This document shows, in pieces, positions 13,758 through 58,466 of a stretch of DNA of 61,568 nt (its first letter is position 1; each line of letters opens with the position of its first letter). The notes beneath the pieces were generated by a model. That model saw only the letters and a program-made list of their open reading frames with translations. It was not told the origin of the DNA and made no database searches. Where the stretch lies: positions 1 through 61,568 of the IMG/VR virus record IMGVR_UViG_3300030107_002736; one strand, written 5' to 3'. This DNA comes from a virus. Position numbers and translations under genes: made by a program.

Positions 13758-16700
13758 ATGCCACAATGGAAAAAGTTACCGGATGGCAGTTGGGATTTTG
13801 TTCCTGATAATATCTCAATTTATAATCAGCTATCCCAGCCGTACTCAAGTTACGATTGGTCACAGTTTTCTGCACAGAGTTCTCCGTTTCAGGCCCGAGA
13901 AAGACAGCAGGATGGCAGCCTTTTTGGGTCTGCAATTGAAGGCCTAAAAAGTATTCCTGCTGGGTTTGTTGATGTCCCTGCACGAATACTTCAGTCCGGT
14001 ATAGGTGCTGTTACACCCTTTGCTGACCTGCCAATTGAAAAACGTTTGCGGGAAGCGGCAAGAAGGCGTCAGCAGGAAGGGTTTGTTTTTAGGCGAGATC
14101 CGACTTACTTGGACGCATTTCTTCCAGACGTGGGAGCAGGCCTTGGCCAAGTCGGTGCCCTTTCTCTTTTGGGTAGACTTGCTACCAGAATGGGTCCATA
14201 CGGACTAATTGCTGGTGGTGTAGCTCTTGGCATAAGCGAACAGATTAATCGGATGGCAGACCAGGAGCAAAAGTCTGGCAAAGACATTCCGTGGTATACT
14301 GAAACGCCCGCCCACCTTATTGGAGGATTGATCGGGCTTTCTGAGATGGTAACGCCACTTAGGTTACTCAAGGGTTTTCCTGGCGCAGCAAAGAGTCCGT
14401 TCTTTAAGCGCATGATCAGGCAAAGCAGGCCAGCAACAGCAGTTTTTTCGGCTGCAGGTATGCGTTCGGCGTTAGGTAGCACGGGGGCGGAGGCGCTACA
14501 AGAAGGCTTTGCTCAGGGTTTGCAATCCGCTACAGCCAGAGGCTTGTACGACCCTGACGCGCTCAAAGACGTGGCACACTCAATGATGGAAGAGGCCAAG
14601 GTCGGCGGTGTCGTTGGTGGTATAGCGGATGTCCTGGCCACATCAATGCGTGGCTACAACATCAGAGGTATGGGCTACGACACAGAAGACCATTTTCAAG
14701 AAGAAGTGTCGCTACAAAGGGCTGATGCTCGGCGGCGTAAAAGCAAGGAAGCAGAAGATTTTTTTAAGGAATTGGACTCAAGTCTGGTTCGTAGGGACAT
14801 AGACCCGATTCTGAAAGAGTACGGAATATCTGAAGGGCTTGCCGAAGATATCCATACCTTGTTTCACGGCGCACATGCAGACATGCCCCTGCACCTTGAG
14901 CACTCGTTAGCGTCTGGAGAGCTAGACGTAGAAACAATGGCGGTGCTAAGGAACAGGTTTAGCGCGAACGCGGAGCGAGCGGCGGCGCAACTGGAAAAAT
15001 TGTCGAACAAAAGCAAAAGCCCGTTACAAAGACGACAGCTTTATAGGGGAGCAAAGGCCATTAGAGAAATCTTGGGCAAGCGCCTATCAGCTCTCGACAA
15101 AAGAATTGAGTTAGCAGGCTACGGGATTGTAAAGCTGGGGGGACTGACAGATTCGACGCAATACCAAGCCATTAGATCTGATGCAAACATTCCCGAGGTT
15201 GTTGACTCTTCTTGGGACACAATCGTTGGTATTGGCCACCAGCGAGACGCTGCCATTAAAGCGGGACAACCGATGCCTGAATACAAAACCATTCTAGAAG
15301 ACTACATGGGTGGTTCAGCCGGTAGGATAGGTCTCTTTAGGATGGCCGAAGTACTGGGTGTTCACGGAGGCCCAGGGTCAGATGCGATTGATGTGGATCG
15401 GGTAGAAAGCAATGGGCACATACCCGACAAAACACTGTCATCTTCGGAGGCAGCAAATTTTTCCTTAGGTGATGTAGGAAGGGTTTTGTTTGGCCGCAAA
15501 GGAGACAGGGGGGTTATAGCTGGCCTGCAATACACAGACGACCTAGGACTTTCTGCAGAGCTTGAAACAATCAATGAAAGAATAAAAACACTAGAAGGTG
15601 AGCTGGATAAGGCATACACAGAGCACCCACGGTTTCGCGAAGTTGCGGAGGCAAAAAAGGGTGAGGTATATGAGTCTGATGATGCGTGGACCCTAGATAA
15701 AAACAAAAACATTGAAAACTGGTTATTAAAAAGCTCGCAAATTTCAAGCCTGATTGCAGGAGAAAACTTTAAAAGAAATGAACTGTACTCAAGGATGGTT
15801 CTTCAGCGGCTGCTTCATGCCAAACGAGTGTTCGACACCCCAGGCACGGACCCTCAAACCTATCGACAAAACAAAAAACTAAAACTAGAAGCTGCCAACG
15901 ACTTAGAGCTTACCACGTCCAAGGACCCCAATGAGCAGGAGGCCGCACTTGATGCGTGGTTACAACAATCAATTGAAGATGCGCAGAACACCTACGACAG
16001 AAGCGTGGAGCGTCAGGCAAGGCTAGATGCGCGTAAGGCAGAAATTGAAAAGAAAATTGCTTCCACAGAAGACGAATCGCTTCTTGTTGAATTGCGTCAA
16101 CAACAGGTACACGACGTTGATGCGCACAAAATGTTTACAAGGGACACTTCCGCAGCACAGCTTGCTCGTTTAGCCACATTTTTTAATAAAGATGTCAGGG
16201 CTAGACGAGATGCAATTGATCAGCGTTTAATGATGAGAGCGTATGCTGACATCAGTGGTTGGGCGTCGAGAAACGATCATCGTCTTACGGTAGCTGAGTC
16301 AGGACAGACTACATCAAGGGAACTGAAAAAATTTATAGAAGATGTCCTGCCAACCCGCTTAAAAAGACATGAAACAATTCAAGAAAATTTAACACGAACA
16401 TACGAAAAGCTAAGAGGCTCAGCCAAGAAGTCCCCAACCTTTGAATCACTGGTCAGGGCACAGTTTGGCGATGGGCGGGACTCAGTAAGAAAGTACGAAG
16501 AAGCTTACGGTCTCGTTACGGCTGATGACGTTGAAACTTTGCTAAAAAGCAAAAATATTTTTTTAAGGGGTGGGGTTCCAGGAAAAGACAAAGACAAGGC
16601 GGTCAAAGGGAACATTGGAAAAACCCTTGAGCGAAGGCTGGGGACGGGTGTAGAAAGCAGGCCCTTTAAATCTCTTCTTCAAAACCTGACTGGTGCCAAG

Positions 16701-19700
16701 AGCTGGGCTACTGCAAGCCCTGGCCAACGCCTGCTTATGTACTCGCGTTTGCTCCAGCTTCCTGCGCACCGGATGACGCTAGACCCTCGTGGCAAGGTGG
16801 ACTCAGAGGGCGGTGGGTTCATGCCGTTATTCCTGCCAACATTTGAGCACAACCCAAAGGCAGATGAATACCTTGAGTCAATCATGGATGTTCTTATCAG
16901 GCCTTACGCATTTAAAGATGAGCGAGCAATTCCTGGTGAACAGAGACGCACAGTTCAAAACATCAGAAATGTAATTGAACAGCAACGAACTCAGGCTGGC
17001 CAAGAGTTTGATGGAATAGAGTTTGATGAGGCACTGGCAACACTTATTGAATCAGGGGTCCTTGATCACGGAGAAAGCTCAGACGCAGACCTTATAGAAG
17101 AGGGCGCTATACTTAGGCCCAGCGAAGGGTCCCTCGCCCCAACAAGAGAGGGGCAACTTGGAAGCCCGAGCAACCCCAAGACAGCAGAAACGGTCCCCGA
17201 ACTAGAAGATGTGTTGACATTTACAGAGGCTGGTGAAGGTGGCTTAAAAACCAAGGTTGATTTTAACTATCGGGGCCATCCACTGTCGGCTATTACTCTG
17301 GGGCATAAAACAATTATCACGGTTGATAATGAATACAGCTCAGATATTCAGTTCGGTGACATACTAGAACTAGACGATCCAACCGGACTAGAAGACGAAA
17401 TTCGACGGATTGGCGATGAGTACGAAAAGGGGTTAATAACGGACCAGATGATGGACTTTTTCTTGTCTAAAGCTGGGCACCGGATACTAGTAAGGGCTGG
17501 AGGACAAGGAACTCCTTTGGCCTGGAGATTTAACTATGCCACGTTAAGCGATATCGCTACACAGTTATCCAACTACAGGGACGGAATATCGAATCCAAAG
17601 GTTCGCACAGCGAACGCTGCGAAGGTTGCAAGAATCGACGGGGCAACTGAACCCGTCGAGTTTGATAAAGCCAGGGTGGTTCCCATGAGATATAGGGATG
17701 GCGACCAAGGTTTAGCCATGCGACCTGGGCTCGAAGGAGCAACAACGCTTGATTTGATTAGGCAAGGACTGAGGACCTCCACTAGCCGACAAAAGAGATT
17801 TCCTATCACGGTTGGGCAAATCATCAAGGTGCAGGGCAAGGACCGGAGCGACTATGATTTTGTGCGCGTTACGTCTGGCTGGAAAAGCCTAGACGAAGTT
17901 GATCAGGCAACATGGACCGAAATGGAAGGGTGGGGCGCTGAAGCATATGAGAAGCTGCGCAAAAAAGGGTATTCCTACTTTACCTACGAAAGGGTAGACC
18001 CAAGCGAGATTGCTAGTAAGTCACGGGACGCAGAAAAGGCTGCAATCGCTACAGCTGTTGTTGGAGAGGTCAATGATCAGCTTGACCCGCTTGGCAACTC
18101 AAAGCTTTCAAGATACATGGAAGCCTTGAAGCCAAGCTTTACGGCCTTCCATTTCGGTACACGGCTATTCAAAAATGAAGCAGACTTGCCGGACCCATCC
18201 GACCTTGTGACTGACGGGATGCAATTGATTAGGCTGGAAAAGCCCTTCACCAGCGAAGATGTTATATGGGTGTCTACCGATATTGGCGTAACTGCATCAA
18301 CTGTCTCTGATTTAAGTAATGTTGTTCCTGTGGAAAGGGTGCTTCGGGCTGTCGTAGATGGGGAGCTGCAGGGAGTATACAAAGCTGTTGACCTTGCAAT
18401 TGAGGCAAGGGCGTCCATTGTTATGGACAAGAAAGACGAGGTTGCCCCTGACGATGTGGCCCAGAAGGAGCTGATAGCCTATCTCGAAGACAAGGGCTAT
18501 GTCAGGATGCCAGAAGATAGTTCAGTGGCCGCGCCAATAGCTGATGAGGGTGGTGACGCTTCCGATTACAGAATAAGAGCTTGGGCACAAAGAAAAAAAG
18601 ACAGGTCGATTGCAAAGAGATTCAACCCCGAAAGTTCTAATAGTGGTGTCTGGGTTTACAACGGTGCCGTAGACTGGGCGCAACAAAACAACTCCTCTGC
18701 GCGTCCATACGCGCAGCTCGTCAAGGACGGGGCTGTAACGATTCCAGTGAAACCGTTCGAGTCATTCGACATACCAGATTGGACGGAGTATGCGGCTTTT
18801 CTGGAGGACATTAGAACTGAATACGCAAAGTCTGGAGTGCTTCCTTATTTGACCGAAGCGGGTTTTGGTGAACTAGATGCTAAACAAAAAATCAGGAACC
18901 AGTTAATACGAAACCCGAGTCTTTTAACGCCAGCAAGCTCAGTCGTGCATGATTATTATAGCGACAAGACAACAAGCGGTCTCACTATTATAGGAGAGTT
19001 ACTGTCTAAACGCAGAAGCAAAGAAGATCGTCTTGATTTTTTAAGACAAGTGCTTCCGGTTATCAATCAAGTGGAACGGGAGTCGCGCACCCTGGGCCCC
19101 ACCATTGAAGAATGGAAAGACATTCTTTCAACGGTAGGATTAAAGCATGTTCCCTATTCAGAGTTTATGCCAGACGTAGATGTAGATGACATTAGTGACG
19201 ACGATTTAAAAAAGTACGAGGAAGAATCTCGTCAGATACTGGGCGACAACACGAGGCTTGATGGAATAGAATTTTCAAAAGAAGACTTGGTTTGGCAGAG
19301 AAGGTACCAGCTACTGCACGATTTGGTGGCCCCTGAGGCCAAGGCCTTTTTTGTAGTTGGAAGCGCCCCCGATGCAGACTACCTGGGTTTTTCGAGCAAC
19401 TTTGGAAGCGATGCCCAAGTGGAAAGGGATGACGAGCAGTACACGTTTATTAATCGCGCTAAGATGTTGCAGTCGTTCGAGCTTTCTGGAGAAAAAGCCG
19501 TTCCCGTCTGGAAGGTTCAGGGCGGCATTGTGACCAAGGACCAAGTAGTTAGGGGTGGCGACACTGACTCAACTTTCTACGCAAACGTAAGGAAGTTTAC
19601 CCCTGACGGTGTTCCCGGCCTTGGGCCGGATGGGTTTGAACGCATTGAAGACTCGTTGGTTATGCTAATAGCCCACGAAAAAGCTCACAGTTTTATAACT

Positions 19701-22700
19701 GCCCAGCTTGTTGGAACAGAAAGGGGTCAGTTCGATAAGGGGCAGGGGGATATAAGTAGCGCCATCTATGAAGACGTAATCAACAACTACGCCTTAAACG
19801 AACTGCCAAGATTGGCGTGGGCAGCCCTCAGGTCTCGTATGGAAACGAGGCGGCTAGACAAGCTCAGGGCTGCGCCCAAGTCGTTTAAGGCTGACACCGT
19901 TAGCCCCAACCTTAACATCATAGAAGGTGCGCGGAGGATGCCGCTCGGTGGCGACTTTGTATCCGACGTAATAGAGCGTCAGGCAGAGCTTGAAGACCAG
20001 TCACCAAGGTCTGACTACCACAAGCACGTCAGAGAAAACAAAAAAATATTTGAGGCCAAAGCAAGCGCAGTCAGGGTCAAAGAAATACTTAATGATCCGA
20101 AGATGAAAAAGCATGTCGATGATGCTGTACGCAGATGGAACAAGCAAAACGAAAAGAAGATCACCAGAAAAGAGTATATAGAAAGATATGCTTCTCAGAT
20201 AACCTCTACGCTTGGGTTGCAGGCATTAGAGGATGCTGGTGTCTTGGAGTCGGTCTCGGGCCGACTAAGGCGAGCGGAAAACATTCCGGCAACGGAATCA
20301 GTTCTTCGCTTCAACACTTCCGAAGGATCAAAAATACTTAGTGAGTTGATTGTGGGTGACGCTGTACCCACATCAATAGAAGCTCGGGCCTCTGCAGTCA
20401 GGAGAGCCCATCTGGAAGAATCACAAAAGCGTTTTGGGCACCTCAAAACCGAAGCCCTTATCACGTTAGCCAAGTTGAGGGTGCCCGATAACATCAAAAC
20501 TCAGTTTGTTGACGATATAGATGGTCTGTTTCAGGGGAACAGTGAGGTAATGGTCAGAGGGGAAATGCTACCCCAAACAAGAGCTGCCGTTTACGACTCT
20601 GCAGCAAACAGAATTATTATCAACCTGGCCGCCATCGACCCTGATAACATGATGGACGCAGAGATGGTTATTCGCGAGGCCGTGACCCACGAGGCAATCC
20701 ACGCGCTTAAGGCCAGGGGTCATTTTTACGAAAGCGAGCTAAGCCACCTTAGAGCGTATGTAAGAAACAACGTGGTTCCAGAGGAGTGGGACAAGGAAGC
20801 TCACGACATGGGACTGACTTGGTTTGAGAGGGAGGTTTACCGCCAAAAAGAATCAAACCTGGGTGAGCTTGAGGTAGAGGAAGAGTCGATTCTGGCGTTA
20901 ATGCAGGCCTTAAGCCAAGACGGTGTGCCCGAGGCGCGTGAAGGTGGTAGTGGTGCCAAGCTGCGTAAAACTAAAAACCGGATGATGGAATTCTTTGATG
21001 CGGTTGTTGGCGCAGCCAAGGAAACGGATATCGGCGGCGTTATGAAAATATTTTCTGCCGTAGAGTCTGGCGCTGTGGGTATGCGGGGTGCTGGGTACAG
21101 AGGAGAGACGGACTTTGACGCTGAAAAAGATGAGATTAGGTCCATGCGTCTGTCTCGTTACGCAGACCCTGCCGAACTGCAAGAGCTGACAAAAGCTATT
21201 GCCTTGCGAGATGCTGCACCAAACGAATCTATGAGGTCTAAGGAGCAGGAAAAAGTAGACAAGATCGCTGACCGGATAGTGGGCAGAAGGTCCAGGATAC
21301 AGGAGTCGGCAAATCCTGTTGACGGAGTACAGGCCATAGACAATGAACGCAGGGCCGTTGAAGAGGTCAGGGCGACAAACTCCTACGCTATTCCCCTCTT
21401 GGGCAACAAGATGTGGACCGCAAAGGACAACCGACAAGCCAGAGATGCCGCACTGGATGAGTATTTCAGAATAAAGAAAGGTGAGTCCGGGTACACGATG
21501 CCTCGTGACTGGATGAACATGTTTGACAATCAAACAAGGAACACCACAACCCTTGAAGATTTAGTCAAAGAAGCGATAGAGAACGGGCTGGTTACGCCAA
21601 CAGCGAAGGGTGGCAGTTTCAAGAAGAGCCTTGAAGAGGGTGTGCTTGGTCCTGACAGCATATCAGGAAACAACCCAGAAGAGACTCTTGAAAATATTAA
21701 AACGTCAAGGGATCAGCTTAGGTATCAATTCCTTGATCGTCGTCAGTGGGTTGTTAAGCAAACTGACAGGTTGCTTGAGTTACAAAACAGAGCCTCTATA
21801 GATGCAGAAACAGCAGCTTTGGTTGCGATCAGAAACGCTGACAACGCAGTAAACTGGCTTGAAGGAATAATGGAGCGCGGCCCAATGTCGTACCTAGGGC
21901 AGAGCACTTCTAGGGGCAGTTGGGATATTGCGCCCGTGTACGACGACCAGCTTCAAGAGAAGTACGGCGGGGACGGTCAGGTTGGTAGCCTGCTTGACAT
22001 ATTTGCTTTTATTGCCAACCCGAAGGATGAGCAGGCTGCCGCCGTATATGGTATGGCCAAGCGTATCCGGTGGACCAGGCTTCGCAGGGACGAGACAAGG
22101 GCTCAGGTGTACCCAGACCCAATGCGACCAAACATCGAACGTGATCTTCAAAGCCCAGAATTAGCTAGTCAGCTACGAATGTTCGACGAAGCCTACGAAA
22201 GAATAAACCCCAAGAACAAAAAAACTGGCGAGCGGATGTGGTCTGAAGCTTTCCTTGATAAGGTTATTGAGGATACCGAGGCAAACAACGAGCACATCAT
22301 AGAGTTCTGGGATCACTATCAAGCCTTTAACAGAGCAATGATAGAGACTTCTTACAGGGCTGGACTTCTTACTAGGTCTCAGCGGGATGAGTGGATAGCA
22401 ATGCCATACACTCCGTTCTATCGCGACACCTCAAAGGAGGACCAAAGTCCGATTGGCTCATCTGGCGAGATGGTCAAGCGAGGGAAGGTGATGGTTGAGC
22501 GGGCCATCAGGGGAAGCTTTGAGCCCATAAAGTCCGACCTGGTGTCGAACATTATGGAGAACACTCAAGCCCTGATTAGAGATATGACTATGAATGTCGC
22601 TACCGCCCGAACTGCAAGGGATGCGGTTTCGTTAGGTGACGCGGAACAGGTTTCCGTGAGCGACATGCGCTCGGCTTTGGATGACAGGATCGTTCGCGTC

Positions 22701-24518
22701 ATGGAGAATGGCAAGGCAACCTACTACAGGTTTGCCGACCCTCAGTTGGCAATGTCGGTAATGATGCTGGGCTTTAATCCTAAAAAGCAGTTAGCAGATT
22801 TGTTTGGCGGAACCGATAAGGGCAAGGCCCTGTCCAAAATAATGACTGGACCGGCACAGCTCCTAAGAACGAGCGTGACAAAGACCCCAGCGTTCCATCA
22901 AAAAAATATTTTTAGAGATTCTTGGAATGCAAGCACCCTTATCGGTGGTGGCCCCGGACTTCTCCTGGACTCTCTTAAAAACGCAATTGACCCCAGCTCC
23001 CTAAGAAGGGCGCAGGAGAAAGGGCTGTCAGTTGGTATTGATTTTGTTGCCAACCCTGACGAGTACGGGCTGGAGATGCGCAAGCAGCTCGACCGTAGCA
23101 AGATAGACTGGACGAATCCACTGTCACCTGTTGCGGCAATGTGGCACTTCCTTGGCAGGCTTTCAAAGCAGTCAGAGGTTGCGACAAGACTTGCCGTGTA
23201 CGACAGGGTGATGGCGTTAACTGGAGACAGGGCCCTTGCTCAATACTTGGCTATAGAAATTATGAACTATGGTCGAAGGGGCGCGAATCAGGCTTTTAGT
23301 ACATTCTTGTCCACTGTCCCCTTTATGAACGGTAGGCTGCAGGGTCTTGATGTTCTGTACAGGGGGATCAGGTCTGGCGGCAGAAGCGGTCGCGGTGTTT
23401 CGGATATTCCGGGCATATGGGGCTACGGCCTGAGCAAGGACCAGTACAAAGATCTTCCTTTGTGGAAGAGAAATAGATCTCAGTTAGTTGGAAGAGGTAT
23501 GCAACTCACTGCTGCTACAATGCTGTACTATTTAATGATGCACGACGACGAAGAATATCAAGGGCTTCGTGACGAGGAGAAAGCGGACAACTGGCTACTT
23601 CCTTTGTCGGGTCATGCGTGGTTTAAGTTGCCGATTCCTTTTGAGGTCGGCGTACTTTTTAAAGTTATTCCTGAACAGCTAATGATGGCTATTCTCGAAA
23701 AAGAACACACGCTTGGTGACGCAGGAGCGGAAGCCGTTCGGCAGCTTAGAACATCTTTAAGCTTTGGTGCCCCGCAGTTCATTGCTCCCTTGTATAACGC
23801 TGCTCGCAACTACGACACCTACAGAAAGGATGCCATTGTAGATCAGTGGACTGCGTTGCGTGAGCCAAACCAGCAAAGGGAGATGTACACAAGCAATGTG
23901 GCTCGCTCTATAGCAGATACCGTAAACGCGATTCCTGGGATGAGAGAGATAGATTTTCTGTCCTCTCCCATGAAAGTCGAATACTTGATGCGCCAGTATC
24001 TGGGCACTATGGGGATGTACGGAATCACGATAGCTGATAGGGTGGCGCGTCAAGGGTATCTTCCGTTACCCAACTGGTCGGACAAAGAAAACATTGTAGG
24101 CACCAGCCTTGATTTTGATTTTGAATCCGTTCTTGGTGGCCCAGGGGTTGTGAATGTTCCACTCTTAGGGGATCTGTTAACAGACCCACGGGTGGGAGCA
24201 GGTAGACAACAAGACTTTTACGAGGTCTTGGGGGAGCTTGACGAAGTTGTAGCTACGCTAAACTCAATTAACGAAACAGACCGCAGGGAAGGGTTTGCTT
24301 ACGCACAAAAACACAGGGCGATGCTGGCACAGAAAAACAGGCTCAGCCACCTGCGGAATCAAATGCGAGCGTGGAGAATCCGCAGGGAGGCGCTACAAAA
24401 AAGAGGTGGCAGCATGACCATCGACGAAAAGCGAGCACAGTACTTACGCATGCTTGAAACACGAGAAGGCATATTAACTGGCGTTAGAGATATTATGGCC
24501 AAAGTAAGGGGCGCATAA
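13758..24518 (+). CDS. Giant polyvalent ejected protein (3,586 aa) with two HExxH motifs and an LPD38-like region
   Basis: One uninterrupted frame of 10.76 kb, about 17 % of the genome. The N-terminal 300 residues carry Gly/Ala hydrophobic segments. Charged helical regions follow. Around residues 1315-1415 a segment (GLRTSTSR, then TVGQII) looks like an ASCH-type domain. Two zincin-like motifs are present, HEKAH at about 1973 and HEAIH at about 2311. Residues about 3030-3230 resemble the LPD38 domain of phage polyvalent proteins (PAFHQKNIFRDSW, later PFMNGRLQG). Family knowledge: such giants travel in the virion and enter the cell with the DNA, carrying effector or counter-defence domains. 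Domain calls are by eye. Confidence 0.75.
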   Translation: MPQWKKLPDGSWDFVPDNISIYNQLSQPYSSYDWSQFSAQSSPFQARERQQDGSLFGSAIEGLKSIPAGFVDVPARILQSGIGAVTPFADLPIEKRLREAARRRQQEGFVFRRDPTYLDAFLPDVGAGLGQVGALSLLGRLATRMGPYGLIAGGVALGISEQINRMADQEQKSGKDIPWYTETPAHLIGGLIGLSEMVTPLRLLKGFPGAAKSPFFKRMIRQSRPATAVFSAAGMRSALGSTGAEALQEGFAQGLQSATARGLYDPDALKDVAHSMMEEAKVGGVVGGIADVLATSMRGYNIRGMGYDTEDHFQEEVSLQRADARRRKSKEAEDFFKELDSSLVRRDIDPILKEYGISEGLAEDIHTLFHGAHADMPLHLEHSLASGELDVETMAVLRNRFSANAERAAAQLEKLSNKSKSPLQRRQLYRGAKAIREILGKRLSALDKRIELAGYGIVKLGGLTDSTQYQAIRSDANIPEVVDSSWDTIVGIGHQRDAAIKAGQPMPEYKTILEDYMGGSAGRIGLFRMAEVLGVHGGPGSDAIDVDRVESNGHIPDKTLSSSEAANFSLGDVGRVLFGRKGDRGVIAGLQYTDDLGLSAELETINERIKTLEGELDKAYTEHPRFREVAEAKKGEVYESDDAWTLDKNKNIENWLLKSSQISSLIAGENFKRNELYSRMVLQRLLHAKRVFDTPGTDPQTYRQNKKLKLEAANDLELTTSKDPNEQEAALDAWLQQSIEDAQNTYDRSVERQARLDARKAEIEKKIASTEDESLLVELRQQQVHDVDAHKMFTRDTSAAQLARLATFFNKDVRARRDAIDQRLMMRAYADISGWASRNDHRLTVAESGQTTSRELKKFIEDVLPTRLKRHETIQENLTRTYEKLRGSAKKSPTFESLVRAQFGDGRDSVRKYEEAYGLVTADDVETLLKSKNIFLRGGVPGKDKDKAVKGNIGKTLERRLGTGVESRPFKSLLQNLTGAKSWATASPGQRLLMYSRLLQLPAHRMTLDPRGKVDSEGGGFMPLFLPTFEHNPKADEYLESIMDVLIRPYAFKDERAIPGEQRRTVQNIRNVIEQQRTQAGQEFDGIEFDEALATLIESGVLDHGESSDADLIEEGAILRPSEGSLAPTREGQLGSPSNPKTAETVPELEDVLTFTEAGEGGLKTKVDFNYRGHPLSAITLGHKTIITVDNEYSSDIQFGDILELDDPTGLEDEIRRIGDEYEKGLITDQMMDFFLSKAGHRILVRAGGQGTPLAWRFNYATLSDIATQLSNYRDGISNPKVRTANAAKVARIDGATEPVEFDKARVVPMRYRDGDQGLAMRPGLEGATTLDLIRQGLRTSTSRQKRFPITVGQIIKVQGKDRSDYDFVRVTSGWKSLDEVDQATWTEMEGWGAEAYEKLRKKGYSYFTYERVDPSEIASKSRDAEKAAIATAVVGEVNDQLDPLGNSKLSRYMEALKPSFTAFHFGTRLFKNEADLPDPSDLVTDGMQLIRLEKPFTSEDVIWVSTDIGVTASTVSDLSNVVPVERVLRAVVDGELQGVYKAVDLAIEARASIVMDKKDEVAPDDVAQKELIAYLEDKGYVRMPEDSSVAAPIADEGGDASDYRIRAWAQRKKDRSIAKRFNPESSNSGVWVYNGAVDWAQQNNSSARPYAQLVKDGAVTIPVKPFESFDIPDWTEYAAFLEDIRTEYAKSGVLPYLTEAGFGELDAKQKIRNQLIRNPSLLTPASSVVHDYYSDKTTSGLTIIGELLSKRRSKEDRLDFLRQVLPVINQVERESRTLGPTIEEWKDILSTVGLKHVPYSEFMPDVDVDDISDDDLKKYEEESRQILGDNTRLDGIEFSKEDLVWQRRYQLLHDLVAPEAKAFFVVGSAPDADYLGFSSNFGSDAQVERDDEQYTFINRAKMLQSFELSGEKAVPVWKVQGGIVTKDQVVRGGDTDSTFYANVRKFTPDGVPGLGPDGFERIEDSLVMLIAHEKAHSFITAQLVGTERGQFDKGQGDISSAIYEDVINNYALNELPRLAWAALRSRMETRRLDKLRAAPKSFKADTVSPNLNIIEGARRMPLGGDFVSDVIERQAELEDQSPRSDYHKHVRENKKIFEAKASAVRVKEILNDPKMKKHVDDAVRRWNKQNEKKITRKEYIERYASQITSTLGLQALEDAGVLESVSGRLRRAENIPATESVLRFNTSEGSKILSELIVGDAVPTSIEARASAVRRAHLEESQKRFGHLKTEALITLAKLRVPDNIKTQFVDDIDGLFQGNSEVMVRGEMLPQTRAAVYDSAANRIIINLAAIDPDNMMDAEMVIREAVTHEAIHALKARGHFYESELSHLRAYVRNNVVPEEWDKEAHDMGLTWFEREVYRQKESNLGELEVEEESILALMQALSQDGVPEAREGGSGAKLRKTKNRMMEFFDAVVGAAKETDIGGVMKIFSAVESGAVGMRGAGYRGETDFDAEKDEIRSMRLSRYADPAELQELTKAIALRDAAPNESMRSKEQEKVDKIADRIVGRRSRIQESANPVDGVQAIDNERRAVEEVRATNSYAIPLLGNKMWTAKDNRQARDAALDEYFRIKKGESGYTMPRDWMNMFDNQTRNTTTLEDLVKEAIENGLVTPTAKGGSFKKSLEEGVLGPDSISGNNPEETLENIKTSRDQLRYQFLDRRQWVVKQTDRLLELQNRASIDAETAALVAIRNADNAVNWLEGIMERGPMSYLGQSTSRGSWDIAPVYDDQLQEKYGGDGQVGSLLDIFAFIANPKDEQAAAVYGMAKRIRWTRLRRDETRAQVYPDPMRPNIERDLQSPELASQLRMFDEAYERINPKNKKTGERMWSEAFLDKVIEDTEANNEHIIEFWDHYQAFNRAMIETSYRAGLLTRSQRDEWIAMPYTPFYRDTSKEDQSPIGSSGEMVKRGKVMVERAIRGSFEPIKSDLVSNIMENTQALIRDMTMNVATARTARDAVSLGDAEQVSVSDMRSALDDRIVRVMENGKATYYRFADPQLAMSVMMLGFNPKKQLADLFGGTDKGKALSKIMTGPAQLLRTSVTKTPAFHQKNIFRDSWNASTLIGGGPGLLLDSLKNAIDPSSLRRAQEKGLSVGIDFVANPDEYGLEMRKQLDRSKIDWTNPLSPVAAMWHFLGRLSKQSEVATRLAVYDRVMALTGDRALAQYLAIEIMNYGRRGANQAFSTFLSTVPFMNGRLQGLDVLYRGIRSGGRSGRGVSDIPGIWGYGLSKDQYKDLPLWKRNRSQLVGRGMQLTAATMLYYLMMHDDEEYQGLRDEEKADNWLLPLSGHAWFKLPIPFEVGVLFKVIPEQLMMAILEKEHTLGDAGAEAVRQLRTSLSFGAPQFIAPLYNAARNYDTYRKDAIVDQWTALREPNQQREMYTSNVARSIADTVNAIPGMREIDFLSSPMKVEYLMRQYLGTMGMYGITIADRVARQGYLPLPNWSDKENIVGTSLDFDFESVLGGPGVVNVPLLGDLLTDPRVGAGRQQDFYEVLGELDEVVATLNSINETDRREGFAYAQKHRAMLAQKNRLSHLRNQMRAWRIRREALQKRGGSMTIDEKRAQYLRMLETREGILTGVRDIMAKVRGA

Positions 24519-40876: not shown

Positions 40877-40893
40877 GGGTGAAAAATTCACCC
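40877..40893 (-). promoter_or_regulatory. Palindromic element, copy 1 (leader of MoxR gene)
   Basis: GGGTGAA-N3-TTCACCC, followed on the minus strand by two bases and AAAGT, then the RBS AGGAGG, then the MoxR start. It could work as a DNA operator or as a 7-bp RNA hairpin in front of the RBS. Confidence 0.7.
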
Positions 40894-43197: not shown

Positions 43198-43478
43198 CAC
43201 TCACCCTCCAACTTTTTGGGTGAATTTTTCACCCCGTCATTGCTTGGGTCCCGATAGGACTGGATCACCCATCTGCCGTTGCGACCATCACGGCAATCCC
43301 AACACACACGAGCGGGAAGGTACTCAATCGGCCACTTCTCCTCCTTCTTCTTCCGCATCGGCTCCCGCTCCCCACATTCTACACACACCTCGACGTTGAA
43401 AGTCCTAGGCTCTTTGCCAACCTCCCCTTCCGTCACCTGTGTGAACCTGCGCTGTACTGCTCCATGCTTGTCAGTCAT
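43197..43478 (-). CDS. Small zinc-ribbon-like protein
   Basis: A 93-residue protein with CVECG near residue 32 and CWDC near 59, the spacing of a zinc ribbon, and many basic residues between. AGGAG precedes its ATG. The last 20 codons contain a palindromic element that belongs to the leader of the next gene. Function unknown. Confidence 0.6.
   Translation of the reverse strand: MTDKHGAVQRRFTQVTEGEVGKEPRTFNVEVCVECGEREPMRKKKEEKWPIEYLPARVCWDCRDGRNGRWVIQSYRDPSNDGVKNSPKKLEGE
43218..43234 (-). promoter_or_regulatory. Palindromic element, copy 2
   Basis: GGGTGAA-N3-TTCACCC followed on the minus strand by AA and AAAGT, then GGAGG and the start of the 69-residue gene. It lies within the 3' coding part of the upstream gene, so it was kept despite coding constraint. 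Confidence 0.7.
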
Positions 43479-44640: not shown

Positions 44641-44657
44641 AGGTGAAATTTTCACCC
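44641..44657 (-). promoter_or_regulatory. Palindromic element, copy 3 (leader of 55-aa gene)
   Basis: One-mismatch copy (AGGTGAA on the plus strand side) of the 17-bp palindrome followed on the minus strand by AG and AAAGT, then AGGAGGAG and ATG. A second inverted repeat, TTGGTTT with AAACCAA (44662-44684), lies right beside it. Confidence 0.7.
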
Positions 44658-44745: not shown

Positions 44746-45324
44746 TCAGCCCTCCATCTCCTCCCACTTCCTGAAGTCGCTCTCGTTCTGCTTGCGCCAC
44801 TCTGCCAACGTGGGTGCACTGGCTTCCGATGCAGCAGTTACAACACGGCCAGGCTGATTGTGAGGACCGTACTCATACGTCCCGTCCTCCATGACCTTAC
44901 CGATGTAGCACCTAGGTAGTCGCTTCTTAACGCGACCGACCGGCTGAATCTTAGCTCTCAGCGGTGGTGCTACCCTTACCACCTTGATGTCCTTGGGTTC
45001 AACCCTTACTCTCTTCACTACTGGTGCAGGTCGTGCCTTTTTGGGTGAAATTTTCACCCGCTTTAGCCTCGCTCGCTCCCGTGCTTCCTCGACTGTCCAT
45101 GCTTCCTGCCTCTGGATGTCAACGGGAACCTGACGATTCGTACGACGCGCTTCGTTCATCGCCTCAACTGGCTCAGGCCAGGGGAAGGGCAACTCATCCT
45201 CCACCTTCTTGATGATACGGTAGGCATCGACTATCGACTCGGCGTTGCGAGCACGAACCCACACAACTGGGTTGATACGCTCAAGGCAAGCGGGAACATA
45301 CCGCTCAACCTCTCTCTTTCTCAC
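44746..45324 (-). CDS. Basic Pro/Arg-rich hypothetical protein, first gene of the leftward array
   Basis: A 192-residue protein. GTG 45324 is preceded by CAGGAGGAGAGGA. It is strongly basic, with a central Lys/Arg/Pro/Val tract that contains RVKISPKK, encoded by a palindromic element inside the gene. Disordered basic proteins of this sort can bind nucleic acid. It heads the long leftward operon and a further palindrome lies in its leader. Confidence 0.6.
   Translation of the reverse strand: MRKREVERYVPACLERINPVVWVRARNAESIVDAYRIIKKVEDELPFPWPEPVEAMNEARRTNRQVPVDIQRQEAWTVEEARERARLKRVKISPKKARPAPVVKRVRVEPKDIKVVRVAPPLRAKIQPVGRVKKRLPRCYIGKVMEDGTYEYGPHNQPGRVVTAASEASAPTLAEWRKQNESDFRKWEEMEG
45043..45059 (-). 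promoter_or_regulatory. Palindromic element, copy 4 (intragenic)
   Basis: A full GGGTGAA-N3-TTCACCC inside the coding part of the 192-residue gene, followed on the minus strand by AA-AAAGG, one base off the usual trailer. Not associated with a nearby start codon. Confidence 0.6.
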
Positions 45325-45355: not shown

Positions 45356-45372
45356 AGGTGAAATTTTCACCC
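45356..45372 (-). promoter_or_regulatory. Palindromic element, copy 5 (leader of the leftward operon)
   Basis: One-mismatch copy followed on the minus strand by CG, AAAGT and GAC. It lies 31 bases upstream of the GTG that opens the leftward array, in the region between the divergent early and packaging units. Confidence 0.7.
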
Positions 45373-45492: not shown

Positions 45493-45509
45493 CGGTGAAT
45501 TTTTCACCC
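45493..45509 (+). promoter_or_regulatory. Palindromic element, copy 6 (upstream of small terminase)
   Basis: CGGTGAA-N3-TTCACCC about 48 bases upstream of the small terminase start. The trailer reads AA-GATGT, a weaker match to AAAGT. It is the site nearest the divergent start points. Confidence 0.6.
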
Positions 45510-45556
45510 AAGATGTCACCTCTTGACCTAACATATCCCTAATGATAGGATGCTAT

Positions 45557-45997
45557 ATGCCTAACCCACCCACGATTACGCCTAAGCAGTCTGCTTTCGC
45601 AGGCTTCGTAGCTAAGGGACACTCCTATGCGGAGGCCTATCGCAAGGCGTATGATGCGAGCAAGATGAGCAAGCAGGTAGTGTGGAACAACAGCTCCAAG
45701 CTCGCCAAGAATCCACGGGTAAAGGAAGCTATCGAAGGACTGAAGGCTGACACCCAGGTGGTGAAGCAAACCCACGAGAAGCTAAACAACGACTGGATTA
45801 TCCAGAAGCTCAGGGCTGAGGCAGTAGACGACACCAACTCCCCGTCCAACAGGATACGGGCACTTGAACTACTGGGTAAAGCAGGAGGACTATTCGAGGA
45901 GTCCACCCACGTCACGTTTGAGAACAGGTCATCCGATGACCTAGAGAAAGAGCTGATGGACAAGCTCGCCATGTGGTCGTCAGCTAGTAAAGCGTAG
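45557..45997 (+). CDS. terS: Terminase small subunit
   Basis: A 146-residue protein from ATG 45557, chosen because AGGA lies seven bases before it; an in-frame ATG at 45542 lacks an RBS. The N-terminal region (TITPKQSAFAGFVAKGHSYA, then EAYRKAYDAS) is the helix-turn-helix pattern of Terminase_2-type small subunits that recognise the packaging site. The middle forms an oligomerising helical region and the C-terminus is acidic. The large subunit lies 3 kb downstream, separated by a minus-strand gene and the structured region. Confidence 0.8.
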   Translation: MPNPPTITPKQSAFAGFVAKGHSYAEAYRKAYDASKMSKQVVWNNSSKLAKNPRVKEAIEGLKADTQVVKQTHEKLNNDWIIQKLRAEAVDDTNSPSNRIRALELLGKAGGLFEESTHVTFENRSSDDLEKELMDKLAMWSSASKA

Positions 45998-46071
45998 GGT
46001 TAGGAACACCCCCCAAAAACTAGCTTTAGGTTGGTGAGATAGAATCTCCTCACACAATCCTAACCTAACGA

Positions 46072-46164
46072 CCTGTACCTCGGTGCTGACAGGGTGCACA
46101 TGGTGACCTATGGGGTGAAAATTTCACCCTAAAAGTGACTTGCCGACCCGTACCTCGGTGCGGG
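46072..46164 (+). repeat. Two hairpins with the same loop and different stems
   Basis: Copy A: CCTGT (46072-46076) pairs with ACAGG (46089-46093). Copy B: CCCG (46147-46150) pairs with CGGG (46161-46164). Both enclose TACCTCGGTG. The stems differ in sequence but both pair, which suggests a conserved RNA or DNA structure. They flank palindromic copy 7. The surrounding 384-base non-coding interval (45998-46381) also contains GGTTAGGA/TCCTAACC (45998-46005 with 46058-46065) and repeated CGAAGGTTG, but no gene. Confidence 0.5.
46113..46129 (+). promoter_or_regulatory. Palindromic element, copy 7
   Basis: A perfect GGGTGAA-N3-TTCACCC with plus-strand trailer TA-AAAGT-GAC, the same trailer as copy 5. 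It lies in the non-coding stretch after the small terminase gene, with no adjacent start codon. Confidence 0.7.
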
Positions 46165-46244
46165 CGGAGGTTGCGGTCTCCCGCGAAGGTTGGAGGGGCC
46201 CCGACGAAGAGGTAGAGATGCGACGAAGGTTGCGGGGACCCACT

Positions 46245-46300
46245 AAAAAAAGTCTGAACACAGACCTAGATTCGCTTGCGAATCCAGGTCGCATGTTCAG
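46245..46300 (-). terminator. Second of two tandem leftward terminators
   Basis: A long hairpin, CTGAACA (46254-46260) with TGTTCAG (46294-46300), then ACCT/AGGT and GATTCG/CGAATC inside, is followed on the minus strand by seven T. It lies downstream of the orphan gene 46382-47368. Confidence 0.75.
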
Positions 46301-46321
46301 TCCTTTAATTTGGGCCTCGAC

Positions 46322-46360
46322 AAAAAAAAGCGGGAGCCGGGTTGTTAGCCCGACCCCCGC
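46322..46360 (-). terminator. First of two tandem leftward terminators
   Basis: GCGGG at each side with an inner CGGG/CCCG stem forms a GC-rich hairpin (46330-46360), followed on the minus strand by eight T (46322-46329). It starts 22 bases after the stop of the orphan gene, a strong intrinsic terminator. Confidence 0.85.
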
Positions 46361-46381
46361 AGTTAGAGTTAACAGGTCACC

Positions 46382-47368
46382 TTAGGCCCAAGGATCCTCT
46401 TTAGTGGGCTGGATGCGAAGCACCTCCGGCGTAGCTAGATCCTCCAAGCAACGCATATCGGATTCGATCTTAGACTTCGCCCGTGCCATCCCACGATGCT
46501 TCGCCTCCAGCTGGTCGTAGAGGGCGTTAAGCTTCATGGTTCCCGCGATGACAATCGACATCGTGTAGTTATGAGGCTTCTGGCCCCACACGATGTCAGT
46601 CACGCGCTCGCCGTCCTCGGTGTCCCGCATGGTGTACTCGGAACGAGGGTTACGAAGCACCCAGAGGGTGTCGGGATCTCCCACTGGATGACCGTAAAGC
46701 ACCAGCTGAGTGTCATCGGCGATGAACTCACGATGAACCTGGAAAGCCATACGGGAGATCTCCACCCACTTAGCTGGCTTACCCATAACGGCACCGCTCA
46801 AGACGGCGAGCATTTCACGCGCATGACCCTCAGAGAGCAGAGAAGCGCAAATGTTCTGGATATCCCTACGCTTCCCTGTCCAGGGACGGTGGGCAGTCTT
46901 GCCCCAATCTGTCCGCGAGCCCGCAGGCTGTGTCGGGACAGGAGTTTCCTGTTGGTCGGCAACGGGAAGCGCGTTCCACTCAGTCATAGCCCGAACATAT
47001 TCGGCTTGAGCGGAGTCGTAAGCCCGCCAGCCGACGCGCTTGGAGGCGTGGAGCATGCCGTTATAAACATCATTGAACAACTGTATGACTGCCGCACGAG
47101 GCATAGACGCCTTAAGCTTTCCAGCCTTCGTGAAGTGGTCGGACAGGAAGTCGGTCAGGCGTCCCAGTATGAGTTGCATCTGCTGGTGGGCCTTCGTCGT
47201 AGCTTTGGCCGTCTCTTTGGCCTTAGGACCGACTTGTGCAATGATGTTGGCCACGTCGGCGACATACTCACTGAGGGCTTTGAAACCCTCGTGGCAGACG
47301 CGAGTGACTGTACCGCGAAGCTTCTCGGCCTTAGCGAGAGCCTGCGGGGACTGTGTTACCTCATCCAT
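46382..47368 (-). CDS. Orphan minus-strand gene inside the packaging region
   Basis: A 328-residue protein from ATG 47368, chosen for GAGGT ahead of it; an upstream in-frame ATG at 47485 has no RBS. The N-terminal 120 residues are helical (KAEKLRGTVTRV, KETAKATTKAHQQM). A Pro-rich linker lies near residue 165-180, and the C-terminal half is a mixed domain with many Met and Arg. I recognise no family. It runs opposite to the terminase genes, has its own tandem terminators and a hairpin over its RBS, so it is an independent, moron-like unit. Possible roles: host takeover, exclusion, or partner of the neighbouring structured RNA. Confidence 0.75.
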   Translation of the reverse strand: MDEVTQSPQALAKAEKLRGTVTRVCHEGFKALSEYVADVANIIAQVGPKAKETAKATTKAHQQMQLILGRLTDFLSDHFTKAGKLKASMPRAAVIQLFNDVYNGMLHASKRVGWRAYDSAQAEYVRAMTEWNALPVADQQETPVPTQPAGSRTDWGKTAHRPWTGKRRDIQNICASLLSEGHAREMLAVLSGAVMGKPAKWVEISRMAFQVHREFIADDTQLVLYGHPVGDPDTLWVLRNPRSEYTMRDTEDGERVTDIVWGQKPHNYTMSIVIAGTMKLNALYDQLEAKHRGMARAKSKIESDMRCLEDLATPEVLRIQPTKEDPWA

Positions 47369-47370
47369 GT

Positions 47371-47387
47371 TAACTACCTCGTAGTTA
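47371..47387 (-). promoter_or_regulatory. Hairpin covering the RBS of the orphan gene
   Basis: TAACTAC and GTAGTTA form a perfect 7-bp stem with loop GAG on the minus strand. The GAGG of the ribosome binding site lies in the loop and stem, two bases before the ATG. Translation may be controlled by opening this hairpin. Confidence 0.5.
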
Positions 47388-47464
47388 TGGATCTGTGTGC
47401 CGTAAAGCGAATCTCTACAGCTGACGCAATACCACGGGGTGCGCTCGACTGGGGATGTCAAGGG

Positions 47465-47505
47465 CAAGAGATTCCAGTGTCGCATACTTGCGACCGAATC
47501 TCTTG
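47465..47505. other. Long hairpin upstream of the structured-RNA promoter
   Basis: CAAGAGATTC (47465-47474) pairs perfectly with GAATCTCTTG (47496-47505), and GTCGCA with TGCGAC inside. It lies in the leader of the minus-strand orphan gene and before the plus-strand promoter at 47525. It could be part of either transcript or a protein-binding DNA site. Confidence 0.6.
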
Positions 47506-47524
47506 GGCCGAAGGCCTAGCACCC

Positions 47525-47554
47525 TTGATATTCCTCGTTTTCGGCAGTTATAAA
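47525..47554 (+). promoter_or_regulatory. Sigma70-like promoter for the structured RNA
   Basis: TTGATA (47525-47530), 18-base spacer, TATAAA (47549-47554). Each hexamer is one base from consensus. The predicted start is about 47561, the first base of a 7-bp hairpin. No protein gene begins nearby, so the promoter most likely drives the non-coding RNA. Confidence 0.65.
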
Positions 47555-47560
47555 CAAAGG

Positions 47561-48112
47561 CTTCGCGTAAGCGCGAAGTCCTCATTGCACTTAGAACTTA
47601 GAACAATGGTTTGTTCTAGGTTCTTATGTGCAATACGAAAACCGTGCACCGTGATATTGGAAAGCTGTAGAGAGCATTGGTAGCTTTCTTTAGAGTGCAG
47701 ACCTTGAACGCGAAGCCAAGGTCGGCAGAGTCAGTTGACTATCCTTCTAGGTTTGGTCCTACAGTGTCTAGTCCCTAGTAGATTGAAGTTAACTTAGGTA
47801 TCTAGACTGTCAGGACCAAACCAATAAACAAAAGTTAGTTGACTGACGCCTCTCTAAAGAAAGCCTTGCCGGTACAAAGAAAAGGGTAGATCGACGCTTG
47901 TTACTACATGGCCGAACTTTTCTTTGCTGAGTTTTTAGCCTCGGGGTAAAAACTCAGGGGTTGGGTGGACAGATGGGGAAGGGAAGTGCTGGGTGGGGCT
48001 GTGTGCTGTTGCTACTGTGATTGTGGTTAGGCTGTTCAGTAAACAGATGGACGACCCCTAGTGGGGGGGAACCCCCCTCTTTGGGGTTGGCCGTCTGTTT
48101 ACATATAAACAG
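47561..48112 (+). ncRNA. Candidate large ornate structured RNA
   Basis: Stems found by eye: 47561-47567/47572-47578 (7 bp); 47584-47590/47628-47634 with two further stems inside (19 bp in total); 47683-47695/47852-47864 (13 bp, perfect) closing a multibranch that holds 47700-47706/47717-47723 and 47730-47741/47836-47847 (12 bp with two G-U) stacked on 47750-47760/47812-47822 (11 bp); 47875-47884/47917-47926 (10 bp) abutting 47927-47937/47947-47957 (11 bp); and 48040-48101 (8 bp plus an inner GC stem). No reading frame of note. Promoter directly upstream. The 3' end is set tentatively at the CTGTTTA/TAAACAG hairpin followed by TGTTTT. Confidence 0.65.
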
Positions 48113-48148
48113 TGTTTTGCACATCCTACCACCAATTTTTGATAATGT

Positions 48149-48810: not shown

Positions 48811-48961
48811 TCGCCTCAAGCACTCTGAAAAGCTTCGCCTGTATGCCCAACTCCTGCTCTCATCACAAAGGGCACAAATAAAAAACTATCATGCGAAGTC
48901 AGAAGCCCTCAGAAAAGATGCCGAGGAAATACTTTTGTACTTTCAAAAGCATGTAGACTGA
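48728..48961 (+). CDS. Small helical protein overlapping its neighbour
   Basis: A 77-residue protein using TTG 48728 (GGGAG seven bases upstream) because no ATG is available. It overlaps the previous gene by 83 bases and its TGA shares a base with the terminase ATG. The last 45 residues are an amphipathic helix (SEKLRLYAQLLLSSQRAQIK). Probably translated for coupling with the terminase; role unknown. Confidence 0.5.
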   Translation: MSQSSKKSDQPEQTKTERETASHLRYLDRLKHSEKLRLYAQLLLSSQRAQIKNYHAKSEALRKDAEEILLYFQKHVD

Positions 48962-50454
48962 TGACCCTGGATATGGCCGCTATTGCGGCAACCATTCGTT
49001 CGCTTCCACCAGACCAACAAAGGGAAGCAATCGAAGTCATTGAGTTGATTAACGAGGTTAAACGTAGAGAGGCATCGGAGAAGGACTTTCTTTCGTTTGT
49101 AAAAGAAGTTTGGCCTGCCTTTATTGAGGGCGAGCATCACAAGATTATGTCCGATGCGTTTAATCGGATTGCTGATGGGACCCTGAAACGGCTTATTGTT
49201 AATATGCCGCCACGACATACTAAGTCAGAGTTTGCGTCTCATCTTTTTCCCGCCTGGTATCTGGGAAGGTTTCCAGATAAAAAAGTCATCCAGACAGCAC
49301 ACACCGCAGAGCTTGCTGTTGGGTTCGGTCGTAAGGTTCGTAACTTGGTAGGTTCAGAAGTCTATCAAAAAATATTTCACGACGTTTCGCTTAGCTCAGA
49401 CTCCAAGGCTGCGGGACGTTGGAGCACCAACAGAAAAGGTGAGTACTTCGCTATTGGTGTTGGCGGTGCTGTTACAGGTAAGGGTGCCGACATTTTAATC
49501 GTAGATGATCCTCACTCAGAGCAGGAAGCTGCACTTAACGACCCTTCCGTGTACGACAAGACGTATGAGTGGTACACCTCTGGTCCTCGTCAGAGATTAC
49601 AGCCTGGTGGGGCGATTTGTCTGGTAATGACTCGCTGGTCCAAGAAAGACCTGACGGGAAGCATTATTAAAGCATCAATTGAGCGTGGTGGCGCAGACGA
49701 GTGGGAGGTTATTGAGTTTCCTGCCATACTTCCGAGCGGAAGACCGTTGTGGCCTGGGTTCTGGCCAATTGATCAGCTTGAGGCTTTGAAAGCAGAACTG
49801 CCGGTTAGCAAGTGGAGCGCCCAGTACCAGCAGGACCCCACGTCAGAACAGGCAGCTATCATCAAGCGTGAGTGGTGGAACGAGTGGACAAAGAAAAGTC
49901 CGCCACCGTGCGACTTCGTTATTCAGTCCTGGGACACGGCATTCCTTGCAAAGGAAACAGCAGACTACAGTGCCTGTACAACATGGGGTGTGTTCAACGA
50001 CGAAGACGGTGTATCAAACATTATTTTGCTTGATGCTCTTCAGGAACGCCTGGAGTTCCCAGACTTAAAGCAACGTGCCTATGAGATGTATAAGCAATAC
50101 GAACCAGACGCCTTTATCGTGGAAGCAAAAGCTGCTGGGACTCCACTGATTTTTGAATTGAGGAGGATGGGTATTCCGGTGGGAGAATACACACCCAGTC
50201 GAGGCAAAGATAAAATTGCTCGCGTAAATGCAATTTCCGATCTATTTTCCTCCGGTCACGTCTGGGCACCAAAAACAAGGTGGGCAGAGCTGGTTATGGA
50301 AGAGTTTGCTGCTTTTCCCACCGGCGACCACGACGACCTTGTGGACTCATCTACACAGGCACTGATGAGATTTCGTCAGGGTGGCTTTATCAGGATAGCA
50401 AGTGATGAAGAAGATGAAGAGTTGTTACCAATGAGAAAAGCTGATTATTACTGA
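48961..50454 (+). CDS. terL: Terminase large subunit
   Basis: A 497-residue DNA-packaging motor with ATPase and nuclease domains. Walker A-like MPPRHTKS near residue 81, Walker B ILIVDDPHS near 178, and coupling region VMTRWSKKDL are visible. The RNase H-like nuclease shows SWDTAF near 322 and GDHDDLVDS near 455. It would cut concatemeric DNA and pump it into proheads through the portal encoded two genes downstream. Terminase_6-type by pattern. Confidence 0.93.
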   Translation: MTLDMAAIAATIRSLPPDQQREAIEVIELINEVKRREASEKDFLSFVKEVWPAFIEGEHHKIMSDAFNRIADGTLKRLIVNMPPRHTKSEFASHLFPAWYLGRFPDKKVIQTAHTAELAVGFGRKVRNLVGSEVYQKIFHDVSLSSDSKAAGRWSTNRKGEYFAIGVGGAVTGKGADILIVDDPHSEQEAALNDPSVYDKTYEWYTSGPRQRLQPGGAICLVMTRWSKKDLTGSIIKASIERGGADEWEVIEFPAILPSGRPLWPGFWPIDQLEALKAELPVSKWSAQYQQDPTSEQAAIIKREWWNEWTKKSPPPCDFVIQSWDTAFLAKETADYSACTTWGVFNDEDGVSNIILLDALQERLEFPDLKQRAYEMYKQYEPDAFIVEAKAAGTPLIFELRRMGIPVGEYTPSRGKDKIARVNAISDLFSSGHVWAPKTRWAELVMEEFAAFPTGDHDDLVDSSTQALMRFRQGGFIRIASDEEDEELLPMRKADYY

Positions 50455-57787: not shown

Positions 57788-57835
57788 GGGGGTGGGAGCG
57801 CAATGTCGCTTCTGCCCCCTTCCTTGTTTTTTTTT
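57788..57835 (+). terminator. Strong intrinsic terminator after the major capsid gene
   Basis: Stem 57788-57800 with 57807-57819 pairs along 13 positions (G-U pairs included), loop CAATGT, then a T-rich tail with nine T (57827-57835). It probably sets the expression step between capsid and tail genes. Confidence 0.85.
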
Positions 57836-57881
57836 CCTGACTACCGAAAACGGTAGACACTAGCCAAGACAGGAGAATGTA

Positions 57882-58466
57882 ATGGCTGACACTACTTTTA
57901 GTGGTAATGTCCGGGCAGAAGGCGGCCTTGAGCAGGTAACCAAGAACGCCACAACTGGTGCATTTACCACAAACTTTGATGTAGACACTAGTGGTAACGT
58001 GTCGGGTACTGGTACGCTAAAGCTGACTGGTGCCACGAACATGGTCGCAGACTATGAGTCGATTACCACAGCAACCAAAACTCTAACAGCAGCCGATTCC
58101 GGCACTGTTTTTGGGTTCAACAAAGCAGACGGTATCGTAGTTACGCTCCCAACCCCAGCGGCTGGAATTATCTACACTTTTCTTGTAGAGACTACGTTTA
58201 CGTCAGCGGGTCAGATTAAGACCGCTACGACTGACGGCACCGATGGCTTCTTGGGAACCGCCTTCCTGTTTGACACAGGAGAGATTGGCGAAACTGACAA
58301 CTTCCACCCCACGTCATCAAACGATGTTATTGATTTGGGTGCTGTTGAGCAGGGCTGGCTTACTGGTGGTTTTATTAGGCTTACAGGCGTTAACACGACG
58401 ACTTGGTTTGTAGAAGCTTTCTTGATGGGTGACGGAACGCTAGCGACTCCGTTTACGGACAGTTAA
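57882..58466 (+). CDS. Probable capsid or tail decoration protein
   Basis: A 194-residue Thr/Gly/Ala-rich beta protein (TLTAADSGTVFGFNKADGIV, then PTPAAGIIYTFLVETTFT). An RBS (AGGAG) precedes the ATG. Beta-solenoid-like sequences of this type form decoration or fibre-base proteins. It stands between two hairpin elements and so may be translated from its own mRNA segment. Confidence 0.65.
   Translation: MADTTFSGNVRAEGGLEQVTKNATTGAFTTNFDVDTSGNVSGTGTLKLTGATNMVADYESITTATKTLTAADSGTVFGFNKADGIVVTLPTPAAGIIYTFLVETTFTSAGQIKTATTDGTDGFLGTAFLFDTGEIGETDNFHPTSSNDVIDLGAVEQGWLTGGFIRLTGVNTTTWFVEAFLMGDGTLATPFTDS

Follow-up and report, generated by a model that had tools for sequence, protein, structure and literature searches.

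Phages bear only a few large ornate RNAs, the function of which is an open question. Among them are GOLLD, an RNA-only 14-mer nanocage, and ROOL, an RNA-only octamer nanocage with multiple pseudoknots (PMC12286853). In staphylococcal phages, the terS/terL region gives rise to the cabRNA, a structured RNA some 400 nt long that the host CBASS cyclase senses (PMC10686824). Our study concerns a gene-free stretch between the terminase genes of an uncultured phage, within the window (the whole stretch of 61,568 nucleotides that was analysed). Given its strong fold and the pairing that mutations keep in some of its relatives, this segment probably represents a new type of phage RNA that changes unusually fast, the transcription of which we infer.

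The segment, known here from its predicted fold, shares with GOLLD (PMC12286853) its large size, gene-free and multibranched nature, phage setting, open function, and partly variable sequence. Unlike GOLLD, it has no covariance-model match and no tRNAs nearby, changes much faster, and has a partner gene, here called X; moreover, the segment loci share no conserved 3' region. GOLLD often lies near tRNA islands, which is a usual and not a necessary feature, and ARAGORN found no tRNA anywhere in the window. With ROOL (PMC12286853), the segment has in common an ornate fold, a size of about 600 to 700 nt, and a phage setting, while it differs by having neither a covariance-model match nor tRNA neighbours and by its location between terS and terL beside the divergent gene X. 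The initial annotation had suggested that the segment might belong to GOLLD or ROOL, or to a new class. As the Rfam cmscan of the window returned neither of them, nor any other match for the segment (gathering score, or E values up to 10), we conclude that it is not GOLLD or ROOL, the covariance-model search being the sole sequence-level test of this exclusion. The cabRNA is similar in genomic neighbourhood and foldedness (PMC10686824), but lies inside the terS/terL coding sequence, with its 400-nt form coming from mRNA, whereas the segment is gene-free, larger, and hypervariable. Provisionally, we file the segment among the large structured phage RNAs.

Another point of comparison is ColE1 RNA II, an R-loop primer that forms an RNA-DNA hybrid at the origin and is processed by RNase H. 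The segment likewise would be a structured RNA of about 550 nt with a G-rich tract, near an origin that is here putative. It has no sequence match to RNA II, and priming or a counterpart of the antisense RNA I would be conjectural here.

The structured segment between terS and terL

The segment lies at the divide between the leftward early genes and the rightward late genes, in the region of the minimum of the cumulative GC skew. Judged by TerL, the nearest cultured phages (54 to 58% identity) are 023Pt_psg01, Phage DSL-LC04, and the Pelagibacter phages HTVC027P and HTVC023P. The locus comprises the following features.

45542-45997, plus strand: terS, terminase small subunit
46000-46380, unstranded: second gene-free segment with structure, between terS and X (z, -6.6/-5.3)
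46330-46360, minus strand: strong intrinsic terminator of gene X
46382-47368 (open frame to 47485), minus strand: gene X, 328 aa
~47391-48102, strand leaning plus: whole structured segment, probable RNA (from shuffles, scan, and MFE fold)
47451-47535, plus strand: 5' long hairpin GGGGATGTCAAGGGCAAGAGATTC ... GAATCTCTTG ... CCCTTGATATTCC (MFE fold)
47525-47554, plus strand: promoter-like match TTGATA-N18-TATAAA, at chance level and absent in relatives
47561-47578, plus strand: hairpin CTTCGCG/CGCGAAG, terminator-like if read on the minus strand
47584-47634, plus strand: hairpin with a 7-bp helix and a 14-bp helix, the latter (47593-47606/47611-47624) including one G-U
47683-47864, plus strand: multibranch domain closed by a perfect 13-bp helix (47683-47695/47852-47864), with two branches inside
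47700-47723: first inner branch, a hairpin
47730-47847: second inner branch, a rod including 47750-47822, with a 12-bp helix with tandem G-U (47730-47741/47836-47847) and a perfect 11-bp helix (47750-47760/47812-47822)
47875-47926, plus strand: hairpin with a perfect 10-bp stem (47875-47884/47917-47926)
47927-47957, plus strand: hairpin with a perfect 11-bp stem (47927-47937/47947-47957)
47958-48038, plus strand: G-rich linker of weak structure
48039-48102, plus strand: 3' hairpin enclosing the conserved GC-rich element, with a 12-bp helix with one G-U (48039-48050/48091-48102) that extends inward with one more G-U
48055-48077, unstranded: conserved GC-rich element CCCCTAGTGGGGGGGAACCCCCC (family CCAGT-G/C tract-CCCCCC)
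48107-48126, unstranded: conserved element AAACAGTGTTTTGCACATCC, 5' of the terL operon
48961-50454, plus strand: terL, terminase large subunit

The structure exceeds chance by far. For 47561-48112, the shuffle z was -7.65 for the plus strand and -9.85 for the minus strand, with none of 100 dinucleotide shuffles equally stable on either one. When both strands of the entire 61.6 kb were scanned, the 4 best of 490 windows of 400 nt all fell within 47251-47900, namely 47501-47900 and 47251-47650, each on both strands. All the long, partly perfect helices that the initial annotation had listed in some 550 gene-free nucleotides are present at the lengths given there, with ensemble mean pairing probabilities of 0.81 to 1.00; the 13-bp stem does close a multibranch with two branches, and the two hairpins said to abut exactly do so at 47926/47927. 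The extent of 47561-48112 given at first is strongly folded, but since the top-ranked windows reach 5' of 47561, the structure starts earlier. The region 47370-48106 folds as a single large architecture (MFE, -323.5 kcal/mol), and the long hairpin near 47451-47535 makes ~47391-48102 the likely extent. A search with the R1 covariance model found no copy in the window, and the search for antisense targets elsewhere in the phage gave only chance matches of 12 to 13 nt and a single 17-nt match, gapless but with one mismatch.

The promoter proposed for a start at 47561 is literally present, but this start is unsupported, because the TTGATA is part of the 5' hairpin, the relatives do not conserve the match, and similar ones are common (four within 1.5 kb). 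A TATAAACA box tried as a promoter motif was rejected, its three copies being not above chance. Among the loci of the relatives, no promoter is conserved, nor was a conserved plus-strand terminator found, one being present in L006 and L008 only.

Folding alone cannot assign the strand, given that the minus strand also folds significantly. The two G-U stems that had been taken as decisive for a plus-strand RNA (47730-47741/47836-47847 and the 3' hairpin) are present and read A-C on the other strand, yet they amount to a leaning. In a strand-neutral test of lone mismatches in helices of at least 10 pairs, G.U outnumbered A.C by 47:16, against 394:322 in a shuffled control with helices of at least 9 pairs. 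A second strand-neutral test gave 34:13 vs 54:30 in shuffles, which is not significant, this control being itself biased by the abundance of G and T in the plus strand. For the candidate RNA, we lean toward the plus strand.

Structured segments and gene X in related phages

Relatives were collected as TerL relatives and by scans for the conserved elements, giving about 30 distinct loci. In at least 10 related loci, from uncultured phages, a gene-free segment of comparable structure occupies this position, i.e., after terS and a minus-strand gene X and before the conserved GC-rich element and terL, and these segments are mostly unalignable between loci. Plus-strand z values for the 520 nt located 5' of the conserved element were -19.4 (L008), -13.3 (L085), -12.4 (L096), -11.3 (L097), -9.9 (L006), -8.1 (L004), -6.7 (L084), and -5.6 (L088), and L005 has a strong fold further 5' (z, -10.2). 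Where the element has the ACAT form, most loci are structured well beyond shuffles (plus-strand z, -5 to -19). The group with the TCA form shows z values of -0.5 to -4.7, and several of its loci have an open reading frame at that place; the structured segment is thus separable from the conserved element.

One relative, L002, has a TerL 99% identical to that of the window, and DNA identity between the two is 94% on the terL side, starting at 48055, and 96% across terS. Between 46023 and 48055 the two differ, and the inter-terminase DNA of L002 still encodes an X homologue, with only about 22 to 23% identity to that of the window, and a structured gene-free segment. Thus, X and the structure have been replaced jointly in phages with nearly the same terminase. 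Neither blastn in phage records nor the terL relatives yielded an alignable homologue of the segment of the window, and exact-pattern scans for it gave three hits, all chance 16- to 18-mers.

In some relatives at this same locus, pairing is kept by compensatory changes. Between L006 and L008 (68% identical), we counted 17 compensatory pairs vs 7.8 expected (P = 0.002) and 43 broken pairs vs 66.6 expected; between L097 and L085 (89% identical), the figures were 7 vs 0.9 (P < 0.002) and 8 vs 26.9. Moreover, an apical hairpin, GTCNAGGTATGCTNCACCGCCTNGAC, with a nearly fixed loop is common to five loci (L006, L008/L009, L085, L088, and L097), and 8 of its 14 pairs have changed on both sides, a score reached by 0 of 500 shuffles. 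Scanning IMG/VR for this hairpin returned the five known loci and three chance coding hits (L118-L120) only. No significant covariation excess was found for L004/L096 and L002/L088, which are too divergent, or for L088 folded against L085, and L005/L100 are too similar to show one. Since the segment of the window has no alignable homologue, its own helices are without direct covariation support. Altogether, the strong fold, the syntenic structured segments, and the compensatory changes in relatives support the large ornate non-coding element of the initial annotation.

X is a real gene family, conserved but very divergent. Its nine homologues, 15 to 29% identical to the protein of the window, have a common layout and share a conserved basic stretch, GKxAxKxIRNKR. 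The AlphaFold model is confident (pLDDT, 82.7) and helical with a small C-terminal sheet; Foldseek found no fold match for it in the PDB or among viral models, no family was found in Pfam, PHROGs, or PADLOC, and a scan with the single protein as query found nothing, while the alignment of the family offered no sufficiently conserved stretch to serve as a query. The gene X2 of L006/L008 has no profile match to X, and the gene of L011 resembles X in the basic motif only. An open reading frame antisense to X (46496-47683, plus strand) was discarded as a real gene, as it has no homologues; X is the genuine gene. X diverges at the pace of the candidate RNA and changes with it. That X binds RNA is a guess prompted by the basic motif.

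Among the cultured relatives, only HTVC027P, a distant one (TerL 56% identical), has a structured gap, unannotated, at 17671-18218 (2165-2712 of L125; z, -4.4). Downstream of terS, this gap separates a leftward gene from the rightward terL side. On its plus strand, a hairpin with a U-run at about 18142 resembles a terminator, and right beside gp34 lies a consensus minus-strand promoter for this gene. The gap has no sequence similarity to the segment, the homology being by position only, and gp33 has no detectable relation to X. HTVC027P is cultured, its infection RNA-seq is public (PRJNA1253180), and gp33 and gp34, beside the gap, form a separate expression cluster peaking at 6 to 9 h (PMC12753301).

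Possible roles of the segment

We tentatively favour a free-standing plus-strand phage RNA from a hypervariable cassette, with a role in conflict; its transcription, strand, and role are those we infer. In this model, (i) a discrete structured RNA of about 550 to 700 nt would be transcribed rightward, starting in the gene-free hub from which X and the terL operon diverge, (ii) X and the RNA would form a hypervariable cassette between terS and terL in an uncultured clade of phages of about 60 kb, exchanged or diverging as one unit, and (iii) X would bind the RNA. Fast change with pairing kept, together with a basic protein partner, suggests an RNA-protein module directed against a changing opponent, which may be host defence or competing phages. 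A bolder version, possible but held with less confidence, is a new class of large RNA that would keep its position and foldedness and not its sequence or secondary structure, and would be swapped with an equally fast X in the course of a conflict. If true, the conservation of place and foldedness with replacement of sequence and partner gene would be an evolutionary mode unlike that of GOLLD and ROOL and would point to conflict. Such RNAs would also be a new search target for phage genomics, missed by covariance models because their homologues do not align.

It is rather unlikely that the segment acts in cis as a long 5' leader, either for X on the minus strand or for the terL operon on the plus strand, through attenuation, control of translation, or antitermination, the last being the way in which the put RNA acts. 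Such a leader would fit a segment that abuts the X start in most loci, lies upstream of the terL operon, and folds equally well on the minus strand. The G.U bias, however, favours the plus strand and not that of X, and in L008 a bidirectional terminator separates the rod from the terL operon. Against a leader also stand the relatives of group B, which lack the structured RNA and yet retain terL and the conserved element, and the position of the HTVC027P promoter directly beside gp34.

A DNA-level or priming element, i.e., a replication origin or packaging site made of DNA hairpins or of a G-rich R-loop primer, is doubtful as an account of the segment. The GC-skew minimum at the divergent transcription hub, the adjacent conserved GC-rich element with its fixed spacing, the G-rich linker, and the repeats after terS would agree with it, and the skew minimum and G-rich tract are consistent with a ColE1-type primer. 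The skew, however, also tracks gene orientation, group B has the conserved element without the structured segment, and such a site would not be expected to change faster than the rest of the genome. None of these arguments against an X leader, a terL leader, or an origin or packaging site is conclusive.

That the structure could be a functionless by-product, made of inverted repeats left by recombination in a highly variable region that does recombine, is quite improbable because of the compensatory changes, with pair-preserving changes above expectation in two pairs of relatives and one hairpin family; many divergent phages, moreover, have the structure at this very position. A divergent member of GOLLD, ROOL, or another described family, as suggested by size, phage setting, and multibranch anatomy, is hardly credible after the Rfam search up to an E value of 10 and in a window devoid of tRNAs.

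Further elements of the locus and genome

In all relatives, the counterpart of 48055-48126 consists of CCAGT-G/C tract-CCCCCC, about 30 nt, and then AAACAGTNTTTTGCACAT, upstream of terL, the GC-rich element keeping a fixed distance to the element at 48107-48126. As the GC-rich element also occurs in relatives without the structured RNA, it is probably a separate DNA element, and 48055-48126 is a possible packaging site or origin. Contig ends, looked at as packaging cut sites, showed no clustering at the conserved element.

The second structured segment, 46000-46380, contains a direct repeat, CGACC(T/C)GTACCTCGGTGC, at 46069 and 46144, and a repeated CGACCYGTACCTCGGTGC; the motif CGACCCGTACCTCA occurs twice each in L002, L088, and L097. 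This segment could hold putative terS binding sites or further RNA.

A dispersed 17-bp palindrome, GGGTGAAAWTTTCACCC, occurs in about seven copies between the early genes, at approximately 40877-40893, 43219-43235, 44641-44657, 45043-45059, 45356-45372, 45494-45510, and 46113-46129. The same core with other arms is found in L002 (CTATAGAAATTTTCTATAG, four copies), in L088 (GGGAGAAAATTTCTCCC, two copies), and in L100, L084, and L004 (GGGGAAAATTTCCCC). From their sequences, these palindromes look like phage-specific operators, i.e., differing immunity types in near-identical phages.

A putative host link is provided by L122, the chromosome of a Dehalococcoidia MAG, with a terminase 69% identical to the TerL of the window; there, terS directly adjoins terL, without a structured segment. 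Elsewhere in the window, 13758-24518 is an open reading frame of 3586 aa with no PHROGs match, and a Mu-gpT-DE RNA motif (Rfam RF03012) lies on the plus strand at 57835-57884 (52.7 bits), just before the open reading frame 57882-58466.
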